This document shows positions 39,665 to 48,022 of a stretch of DNA of 64,000 nt, piece after piece (the first letter of the stretch is position 1; the number at the start of each line of letters is the position of its first letter). The notes under the pieces are model-generated. The model saw nothing but the letters and a program-made list of their open reading frames with translations. It was not told where the DNA came from and did no database searches. Source of the stretch: Branchiostoma floridae (lineage: Eukaryota; Chordata; Leptocardii; Amphioxiformes; Branchiostomatidae); the NCBI RefSeq assembly GCF_000003815.2, contig NC_049981.1, positions 28,570,379 through 28,634,378 on the forward strand, given 5' to 3'. Both the position numbers and the translations under genes were made by a program.

Positions 39665-42600
39665 CTAGTAATTCGCCAGCTTGTCGTTGATCCAGGAGAT
39701 GTAGTTCGTGACACGTGTGTAGACACCGGGCTTGTAGGCCTGTGCGCAGCCGTATCCCCAGGACACGACGCCGTCCAGGGTCCACTGTCCGCTGTAGTTA
39801 CACACGAAAGGTCCACCGGAGTCACCCTGTGGAATTGGAACACAAACATGTGGTAGTCTGATAAAATTGACACATTCCTCATGAAAATCGTCTCCTGATA
39901 GTATTATTCCAACCACTAACAATGCAATGTATATGAATTCCATTAAAGATGGCATCAATGTATGTATACATCATACATATGTGATATAGTCATTGTTGAT
40001 AAACGTAAGGTAATGTCCACATCATATATGAATACCATACTCAAGGATAATTTATACATCTTAACTGATTTTAGAATATTTCACATAACAATGTGAAGGA
40101 ACTGTATCAATGATGACAGATCGTTATTGCATTGCACGCGTTTGCTCTTAAAAGTTACACAATAAAAAAAGTAGTAAAAAGCTACGCATGGTGATAAACA
40201 TAATTATAATTTCATTGATATAAGATATGGTGGCTTACTATCTTTATAGTGACTAATGTGTAATAATATGTAGAATAACAATTTTTTTTAGACAGCTGTA
40301 CCAGTGTGAGGTTATAGATACGTAGGCACGTGGATTTGTCGTTTTTTGCAAACATGGGTGATATCTATTGCGTCATATCTCTATGTACATGTACTAATAC
40401 GGGGGTAATGTTTGTTCCGATATAAATGTACAGACCATTACCTTATCTCACATAAACAATGTCAGCTGCGAGTTCTCATGACAATATTTCTCTTTTATTA
40501 CGTAATGTAGAAAAGGCTAGGTGGACAGAAATAATAATGATGCTCTTATTAAGATCCCTGCCTAAATTTGGTGGACATTATAACATACATGACGAAAATA
40601 GTAACTGATAACGGGATACGAAAATAGAATTTTTGCAAAAATAATAATCCTCTTTTTTTTTAAAACTATGGCAGCGATCACTCTCGCGAGAGTTCTTTTC
40701 CACGAGACTTGTCCATGATTGGCCAAAAGCGTTGCCTACTATACTTGTGTGTAAGGGAATCTTGTGTGTCGTTGATTAGCGTAGAACAGCTATAATCATG
40801 GAATCAGGCGTTTTTTGCAATTTTGACCCATCTCCAATGGAACCTGATCAACAAACTCAGGGATTGAAAAGAATGCCAATCACAAGTACATGGAGGGGGG
40901 TGGGGGGGGGGGCTGGGGGGTGGGGGGGTATTACCTGGCAGGCATCGACACCTCCCTGTGTATAGCCAGCGCAGATCATGTTGTTAGTAATCTGGCCGTT
41001 GTAGTAGCTGCCACTGTTGCAAGTGGACCTGCTCACGACCGGCACCTTACCCTGCTGCAAGATGTTGGGCAGACCGGATCCTAATGAACATCAAGTGAGG
41101 AAAGATTGTAAGTAGCGAGATACTTGGAATGGTATCTGGCAGCGTAGCTTCTGTCATACATCCTTTACGTGGTATCTAATGTTACTTGAAAAACATTGAG
41201 TCGCAAATTATGAGCAGATTATAGATATGAGCAGAACGTTGAAATGCATAACGCTCTGGCTCTGGTAAACAATATTCAAGAAAAAGTGCTCAATTTTTCA
41301 TAATTTCCCTTCAATAACAACTGAATTTATCTTGTAGACACCTGTAGCCGATTTCCCCTGTTTGAAGGACGAAGGTCTACGGAGGCCTGCATGACCCACT
41401 CTCTACCATTACAGTTCTTGGGGGGTACGCATGGCGGAACATTCTCGACAAGTACGCATGTCCATACTGCGGAAGAAAATTCCTATCCATTTTTTTTCAA
41501 ATCTATCTTTGTAGACTTAACACAATATTCCAATTGCAGCCTCCGCCCCTGATGCGTCGCCAAAAAGGACGAAACATTTTGTAGAGGACAAGGAAAGTTC
41601 TTTACCGCCAGTGGATCCCCACCCGGTGGTGTAGCACATGGTACCGTCGGGTGCGTCGACTGTTGGCAGGCACACAGGGCTGGCGTAATCATCAAACGTG
41701 ATGCTGCTGGACAACTTCATCAGAGCGATGTCGTTGTCAATAAGGCTGTGATGGCAAAGGAAACAATCCATAGAATACCGGAAAATTATAGCAATGTTTC
41801 TTCGCCTTTGTTTACCGCTGTCTGAACTATAGGCTTCGGTAGTAGTATTGAACTACAAAGTATATGTGAACATGGGGAACAATTGCCAAAGTCACGTGTT
41901 CGTAAGGTCATGTGACTGATCATTCGAACTTGAAAGTCGGAGCAGGGAAGCTAAATAAACATTTTTGCCAGTTTGATTATTGTGTTAGGATAAACTTCAG
42001 CAGCAATCTATATCTATACACTGCATTGTTGATATCATGAATAACACAATAGTTTTACACAGCTGATACAGTATCATGTTACAAACTTTGAGTTGTATCT
42101 CTCGTGCATGATGACCCTGCTGACGGCGTGGTCCCGCTGGGTGGAGTCGGTGTTCTGGCGGCGGTGGCTGCCCACACGGATCGTCCATTGGCTGGGAGAA
42201 CGGTTACTGGAGGAGGCAAAAACGTAATACATACGGATGTACAAAATGTGTCCCATTCATATTTGTAGTGAAGTCAAGAACAAAGGATCAGCGACAGTGT
42301 GATGAAAAGTGTACAAAATGTTTGTTGACGCCACCTTTTACAAAAGTACTGGGGCATAAAGAAACATACCAAATATAATGATATCTATTGATAACAATAA
42401 CATAACAATTCCGAAACGTTGGAAGTTTTCTGAGTGCAGGTCCATGCCCGCGGGATTACAAAAGGGTGCACGGGACAAGGGGCAAAGGAAAGTTAAGTAT
42501 GATAACGTTATCTATCAATTTCGTACATTTTCTGGGACTAGGTAATTGTCATACTACATACAAGCTACTAAACAGAAATCTATACGACGCGGACCAATAT

Positions 42601-48022: not shown

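Follow-up and report, generated by a model that had tools for sequence, protein, structure and literature searches.

Does this lancelet locus encode a single protease in which a CUB, a kringle and a trypsin domain follow one another, and how might such an order have arisen? We analysed a stretch of 64,000 nucleotides of Branchiostoma floridae DNA, hereafter the window. The CUB-kringle-trypsin gene lies on its minus strand, with the start codon at 48022 and the stop codon ending at 39665 (Table 1). Its 12 exons give 1488 coding bases without internal stop or frameshift, i.e. 495 residues and the stop codon in the preferred join. All 11 introns of this join start with GT and end with AG, and the exon-end phases (1, 2, 1, 1, 0, 1, 0, 2, 2, 1, 0) keep the frame throughout. 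The sequence-only reading had proposed twelve exons with consistent phases, which we recovered with exactly the same outer limits, and a protein of 493 residues, a length that was not reproduced. A TATA-type box and a polyadenylation-type signal flank the gene. Intron 1 and the TA repeat of intron 4 have other TATA-like matches. The presence of an AATAAA motif in each of introns 1, 5 and 11 counts against the gene model. At the level of sequence anatomy, the CUB-kringle-trypsin order is confirmed as real and is carried by a complete-looking single gene.

Table 1. Predicted features of the CUB-kringle-trypsin gene and of the neighbouring protease genes (positions in the window)
Feature	Positions	Strand	Remarks
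TATA-type box TATAAATA	48088..48095	minus	Pattern scan; putative promoter element; first base (48095) 73 bases 5' of the start codon
Exon 1: start codon and signal peptide (hydrophobic core)	47971..48022	minus	Ends in phase 1; cleavage site placed by eye
Exon 2: first part of CUB	46862..47006	minus	Starts in phase 1
Exon 3: middle of CUB, with E73 and D81 (calcium-type site)	46418..46512	minus	
Exon 4: last part of CUB, with D123	45877..46005	minus	Ends in phase 1 (preferred join)
Exon 5: first half of kringle	45217..45332	minus	Starts in phase 1 (preferred join)
Exon 6: second half of kringle	43783..43909	minus	Ends in phase 1
Exon 7: Thr/Gly linker, Cys250, R261/VVGG activation site, protease start	43282..43445	minus	
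Exon 8: protease, catalytic His303	42712..42803	minus	
Exon 9: protease	42087..42206	minus	Weak donor GTTTGT
Exon 10: protease, catalytic Asp352 and Cys372	41606..41745	minus	
Exon 11: protease, Asp439 (position 189, Arg/Lys preference)	40935..41080	minus	
Exon 12: protease, catalytic Ser445, stop codon	39665..39826	minus	
AATAAA polyadenylation-type signal	39586..39591	minus	Pattern scan; 74 bases past the stop codon
Paralogue A: Thr linker, kringle, linker, kringle, linker, trypsin	49733..63930	minus	5' end beyond base 64000
Gene B: kringle, linker, trypsin	35207..38523	plus	Approximate exon limits
Gene C: LDL-receptor class A module, then trypsin	29653..32840	minus	Approximate limits

We then examined the domains of the 495-residue protein. 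Pfam placed a CUB at residues 23-135 (114.5 bits, cut-off 21.4) and a single kringle stretch at residues 142-218 (89.9 bits, cut-off 34.3), both near full length, followed by a trypsin domain (PF00089) at residues 262-488 (255.8 bits, cut-off 20.6; profile positions 1-220 of 220). Scores of this size are well outside what chance would give. The N-terminus resembles a signal peptide, with a mean hydropathy of 1.9 over residues 2-15 and small residues at the end, and no second strongly hydrophobic stretch was found from residue 21 on (best 19-residue mean, 1.19). Signal peptide, CUB, kringle, Thr/Gly linker and intact trypsin domain thus stand in the order described earlier. Among the Pfam matches of the protein (up to E 0.05) there was no PAN, and likewise no EGF, CCP/sushi, FN, WSC or second CUB. 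The catalytic triad is present (H303, D352, S445), Asp439 stands six residues before Ser445 at position 189, and the activation bond would be Arg261-Val262. The protein therefore meets the description of an S1A (chymotrypsin-fold) serine peptidase, with a predicted activation site and a trypsin-type S1 pocket.

All 22 cysteines could be placed: the signal peptide has 2, the CUB 4, the kringle 6 and the protease 10. For the pairing, we assumed the disulfide pattern of the standard CUB, kringle and protease positions; with this 4 + 6 + 10 split, every mature cysteine has a standard partner position. Cys250 and Cys372 occupy what we take to be the positions of the disulfide that holds both chains together. 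In the kringle, which aligns without gaps to plasminogen kringle 1, all seven residues of the predicted lysine site are present (R34, D54, D56, W61, Y63, R70 and W71, numbered from the first kringle cysteine), these seven positions being presumably those of the plasminogen-type lysine-binding site. E73, D81 and D123 of the CUB align with matching acidic residues of cubilin, and we take them to be the calcium-type set of the CUB site.

The CUB-kringle-trypsin finding depends above all on the border between exons 4 and 5. We paired three acceptors with seven donors located at or beyond the end of the CUB. Seven of the joins keep an uninterrupted frame, with products of 495, 497, 502, 507, 526, 533 or 534 residues, and a CUB is followed by a kringle in each of the seven. 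Exon 4 has an open frame as far as 45757, in which donors of every phase occur; alternative donors lie at 45874, 45870, 45855 and further on. Besides the preferred acceptor (exon 5 starting at 45332), exon 5 may start at 45364 or at 45366, where its open frame begins right after a stop codon. Donor 45874 joined to acceptor 45366, for example, gives 507 residues with a phase 0 border instead of phase 1. A unique, phase-1-only border was therefore dropped, since donors of other phases are present and seven joins are in frame.

The 495-residue join has a CAG/GT donor, an even number of cysteines, and a CUB and a kringle that are both of class 1-1. Counterparts of its acceptor (45332) occur immediately before the first and the second kringle of paralogue A. 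We prefer this join for the absence of an odd cysteine, for its CAG/GT donor and for these acceptor counterparts. In both genes, however, an in-frame SCYD stands 5' of the preferred acceptor, so exon 5 may be slightly longer. The kringle exon of gene B begins about nine residues upstream of the position matching this acceptor, and the kringle-exon border is therefore not constant across the cluster. The exact border between exons 4 and 5 is ambiguous, while the predicted CUB-kringle architecture is unaffected by the choice.

The same region bears on the proposal that two genes were misjoined, i.e. that exons 1-4 belong to a small secreted CUB protein and the remaining exons to a kringle-trypsin gene downstream. 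A long TA repeat in intron 4 includes seven TATA-like matches, no CUB was detected in the siblings A and B, which have kringle and trypsin domains, and the open frame of exon 4 makes a read-through end conceivable. However, the TATA-like matches of intron 4 all fall within the TA repeat, and the intron contains no AATAAA or ATTAAA. We scanned 45333-46417 for an alternative first exon in or near intron 4, with phase-1 donors and a hydropathy threshold, and the only hydrophobic ATG frame that could start a new signal-peptide exon consists of the TA repeat. As intron 4 offers neither a polyadenylation signal nor a plausible first exon, a separate CUB gene is unlikely. With, in addition, seven in-frame donor/acceptor pairs connecting the CUB and kringle parts, the case for one gene is good, though indirect, and we consider a misjoining very improbable.

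We then searched the neighbourhood of the gene. A tblastn search with the 495-residue protein identified three more trypsin genes within the 64-kb window (paralogue A, gene B and gene C). Related catalytic cassettes are neighbours here and differ in their front ends (CUB-kringle, kringle-kringle, kringle or LDLa). As judged by similarity, the CUB-kringle-trypsin gene belongs to a local cluster of trypsin genes with kringle or LDLa modules. The catalytic part of gene B is about 50% identical to that of the CUB-kringle-trypsin protein over 260 aligned positions; its signal-peptide exon was not located. In gene B, the content of exons 9 and 10 forms one open stretch (37242-37514, plus strand), against two exons in the CUB-kringle-trypsin gene and in A, which implies the gain or loss of an intron in the history of the cluster.

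Paralogue A is much closer to the CUB-kringle-trypsin gene. From its second kringle to the stop codon, i.e. a comparison without the CUB, the two genes are 87.2% identical over 344 codons (Ks 0.18, Ka 0.077, Ka/Ks 0.42). These values point to a recent duplicate with a protein under constraint. Thr-rich linker exons stand before, between and after the two kringles of A. The long one at 63730-63930 (minus strand) is made of repeated short Thr/Ala/Pro-type units. The exon at 49733-49894 is presumably the last of A; 7.7 kb separate it from the preceding one (49894-57638, minus strand), against 1.1 kb between the last two exons of the CUB-kringle-trypsin gene. The second kringle of A keeps six of the seven lysine-site residues, with Glu at position 34. 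As assembled, the first kringle (62900-63009, minus strand) lacks 7 bases that are present in the two other aligned kringles; this deletion shifts the frame and removes one cysteine codon. Paralogue A may be decaying at this kringle, or the assembly may be in error.

The frameshift in this neighbour raises the possibility that the CUB-kringle-trypsin gene is itself a decaying copy, which would look intact and yet be unexpressed. Its 1488 bases without stop or frameshift, its 22 placed cysteines and the Ka/Ks of 0.42 for the pair argue against such a decay, which is the least probable of the explanations that we considered.

Two possible mobile elements were seen in passing. The stretch 44796-45041 of intron 5 recurs with 88% identity at 62046-62296, between the halves of the first kringle of gene A, and contains short inverted matches, which suggests a small mobile element. 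On the minus strand at 8001-12998, a reverse transcriptase domain (Pfam RVT_1, 64.7 bits) marks an element of retrotransposon type. Rfam gave no match at gathering score over the 64,000 bases, and no match to six peptide patterns was found in viral contigs.

We also looked for a nearby source of the CUB. With the CUB alone, tblastn found its own three exons in the 64-kb window and nothing else below E 0.2. Pfam frame scans detected no CUB on the plus strand at 28-33 and 32.4-36 kb, on the minus strand at 30.2-35.2 and 62-64 kb, or on either strand at 3-13 and 50-55 kb. A CUB split over several exons could escape these scans, and that of 62-64 kb is weak, as it missed kringle exons that tblastn finds there. 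No second CUB was thus found by tblastn or in the parts scanned with Pfam.

We compared each domain with the sequences of solved structures in the PDB. For the kringle (best 60 of 91 matches), plasminogen kringle 1 came first with 94.8 to 101.8 bits per kringle, followed by a single-kringle apolipoprotein(a) chain (94.6 bits), plasminogen kringle 4 (86.2 to 93.0 bits) and HGF kringle 2 (84.6 to 89.0 bits). For the catalytic domain (best 60 of 559 matches), plasminogen (221.2 bits), TMPRSS2 (220.4 bits), enteropeptidase (220.2 bits) and hepsin (219.8 bits) are tied, and this domain is therefore not specifically plasminogen-like. Per single CUB, TSG-6 (78.9 bits), PCPE-1 (78.8 bits) and cubilin (76.9 bits) gave the best scores. 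Judged by these scores, the kringle points to plasminogen, and the CUB and the catalytic domain point nowhere in particular.

These comparisons also bear on a protease of complement or developmental type, in which the CUB would serve for calcium-dependent pairing or docking, as in MASP or tolloid partners, and one specific zymogen would be activated. Such a role would agree with the calcium-type residues of the CUB and with the trypsin-like Asp189 pocket, and the CUBs of MASP, C1r and C1s are found within the 46 matched PDB sequences. But single-CUB chains of MASP-1 (52.7 bits) and C1r (48.1 bits) score well below the best matches, and the CUB is, on its scores, not especially complement-like. 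Moreover, no EGF, CCP/sushi or second CUB match accompanies it, and the kringle has an intact predicted lysine site and belongs to a gene with kringle-trypsin siblings. We therefore regard this role as unlikely. The earlier suggestion of a coagulation-, complement- or clearance-like protease is thus narrowed rather than upheld as a whole: its complement part finds little echo in the CUB, and 'plasminogen-like, with a CUB' is the more specific description, given the cluster, the top match to plasminogen kringle 1 and the two-kringle sibling.

Overall, the locus probably encodes a secreted, plasminogen-like S1 protease zymogen, as a single animal gene that has gained a CUB. The lack of a PAN and of multiple kringles, both hallmarks of plasminogen, weighs against this reading. 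In the preferred join, the signal-peptide exon, the CUB and the kringle are all bounded by phase-1 introns. The account of this phase signature is, we assume, that of Patthy. In the available part of one source, phase-1 borders are given as the signature of exon-shuffled extracellular modules (PMC8001218). A class 1-1 set of CUB exons would have entered at phase-1 introns, between the signal peptide and the kringle, and its recipient would have been a kringle-trypsin gene of a cluster that was duplicating locally. Such an insertion appears to be the simplest history. A loss of the CUB from the siblings would be an alternative, the 5' end of paralogue A lying outside the window.

The mode of action of this plasminogen-like zymogen can be proposed by analogy with plasmin. 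The CUB and the kringle might serve to dock the zymogen on proteins whose surfaces expose basic side chains, above all lysine. Cleavage after Arg261 would be the work of a trypsin-like activator, and the new terminus at Val262 would order the active site, which would then cleave after Arg or Lys. The Cys250-Cys372 disulfide would tie the docking domains to the protease, so that proteolysis would stay local, as with plasmin. Matrix, humoral or surface proteins would be likely substrates.

Alternatively, the cluster might consist of gut enzymes, the front modules binding food or mucus, with no humoral role. The trypsin pocket and the recently duplicated gene pair fit with digestion, and sea anemone trypsins are described, in the accessible portion of PMC6767649, as diversifying by duplication and domain gain. 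The lysine site, the predicted heavy-chain disulfide and the sibling's plasminogen-like layout speak for proteolysis at selected targets and not in bulk, and we hold a digestive or mucus protease to be quite unlikely. A bolder extension of the plasminogen-like reading is doubtful as well: the protein would be a two-handed, lysine-recognising clearance protease of an invertebrate chordate, directed to surfaces and independent of fibrin, in which the CUB (as a calcium-dependent handle) and the kringle would each read exposed basic side chains, and the cluster would be a workshop of phase-1 modules, in which one catalytic cassette would repeatedly be given new recognition modules via phase-1 introns.

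The CUB-kringle-trypsin gene thus appears to code for a relative of plasminogen-type enzymes that was reshuffled locally, and not for a new kind of protein. Much of the novelty of its architecture is explained by the sibling protease genes with other front ends that adjoin it. The architecture belongs, in shuffled form, to a familiar class and is ordinary within metazoan domain shuffling in general. The cluster nevertheless bears on the assembly of the plasminogen and kringle-protease families before vertebrates, and the gene pair with a Ks of 0.18 is young enough for a direct study of domain gain or loss. It also raises the question of a surface-targeted, plasmin-like proteolysis without fibrin clotting.

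Finally, we compared the protein with known systems. A text search of the open-licence PMC literature, as far as its text was accessible, found no description of the CUB-kringle-trypsin order, which is unusual relative to vertebrate proteases. The available parts of PMC6767649, PMC3927612, PMC3927609, PMC11788884, PMC12549020, PMC7333891, PMC6626399, PMC4224354 and PMC3299649 contain nothing on it. A lancelet of the genus Branchiostoma shows the most novel domain combinations among eukaryotes, according to an excerpt of a 2025 paper citing Zmasek and Godzik 2012 (PMC12373286). As far as the accessible text of PMC6337849 goes, some lancelet proteins combine SRCR, kringle, LDLa, trypsin and mostly PAN domains, with some trypsin domains predicted to be non-functional, and they are the lancelet best hits to the plasminogen activator group (its Table 2).

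The proteins of this activator group (tPA, uPA, HABP2, HGFAC and FXII) share with the CUB-kringle-trypsin protein a kringle before the trypsin domain. They carry EGF, FN1 or FN2 modules and no CUB, whereas our protein has no EGF or FN match in Pfam. With MASP, C1r and C1s, it shares an N-terminal CUB, a C-terminal trypsin domain and the nature of a secreted zymogen, as predicted here. These complement proteases have the order CUB-EGF-CUB-CCP-CCP-SP and no kringle, whereas the present protein has one CUB, no EGF or sushi match, and a kringle. Kremen 1 and 2 also contain both a kringle and a CUB, together with a WSC domain and a transmembrane segment, no protease being named in the portion of PMC3927609 available; our protein differs by its protease domain and by the lack of a WSC match and of a predicted membrane anchor (best 19-residue mean hydropathy, 1.19).

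The plasminogen family (PLG, HGF and MSP) resembles the present protein by a kringle with a predicted lysine-binding site, and differs from it in that our protein has neither PAN nor several kringles. Vertebrate plasminogen has a PAN, five kringles and no CUB. Its likeness to our protein lies in the complete kringle lysine site (7/7), the R/VVGG activation motif and the two-chain disulfide layout. Closer to the lancelet, Liu and Zhang reportedly described in 2009 a two-kringle plasminogen-like protease of Branchiostoma belcheri. Two-kringle proteases were proposed as cephalochordate plasminogen orthologues in earlier work, which agrees with the data in the accessible part of PMC6337849. According to the available text of PMC8037105, the plasminogen of B. 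belcheri combines two kringles with a serine protease domain, lacks a PAN and has an Arg-Val site; its lysine-binding domain is apparently conserved in one kringle, and it yields plasmin activity with human uPA. Compared by this description alone, it differs from the CUB-kringle-trypsin protein by its two kringles and by the absence of any mention of a CUB, and in its reported layout it is similar to what is visible of paralogue A. It shares with our protein the association of kringle and trypsin domains, the Arg-Val site, the catalytic triad and the lack of a PAN.
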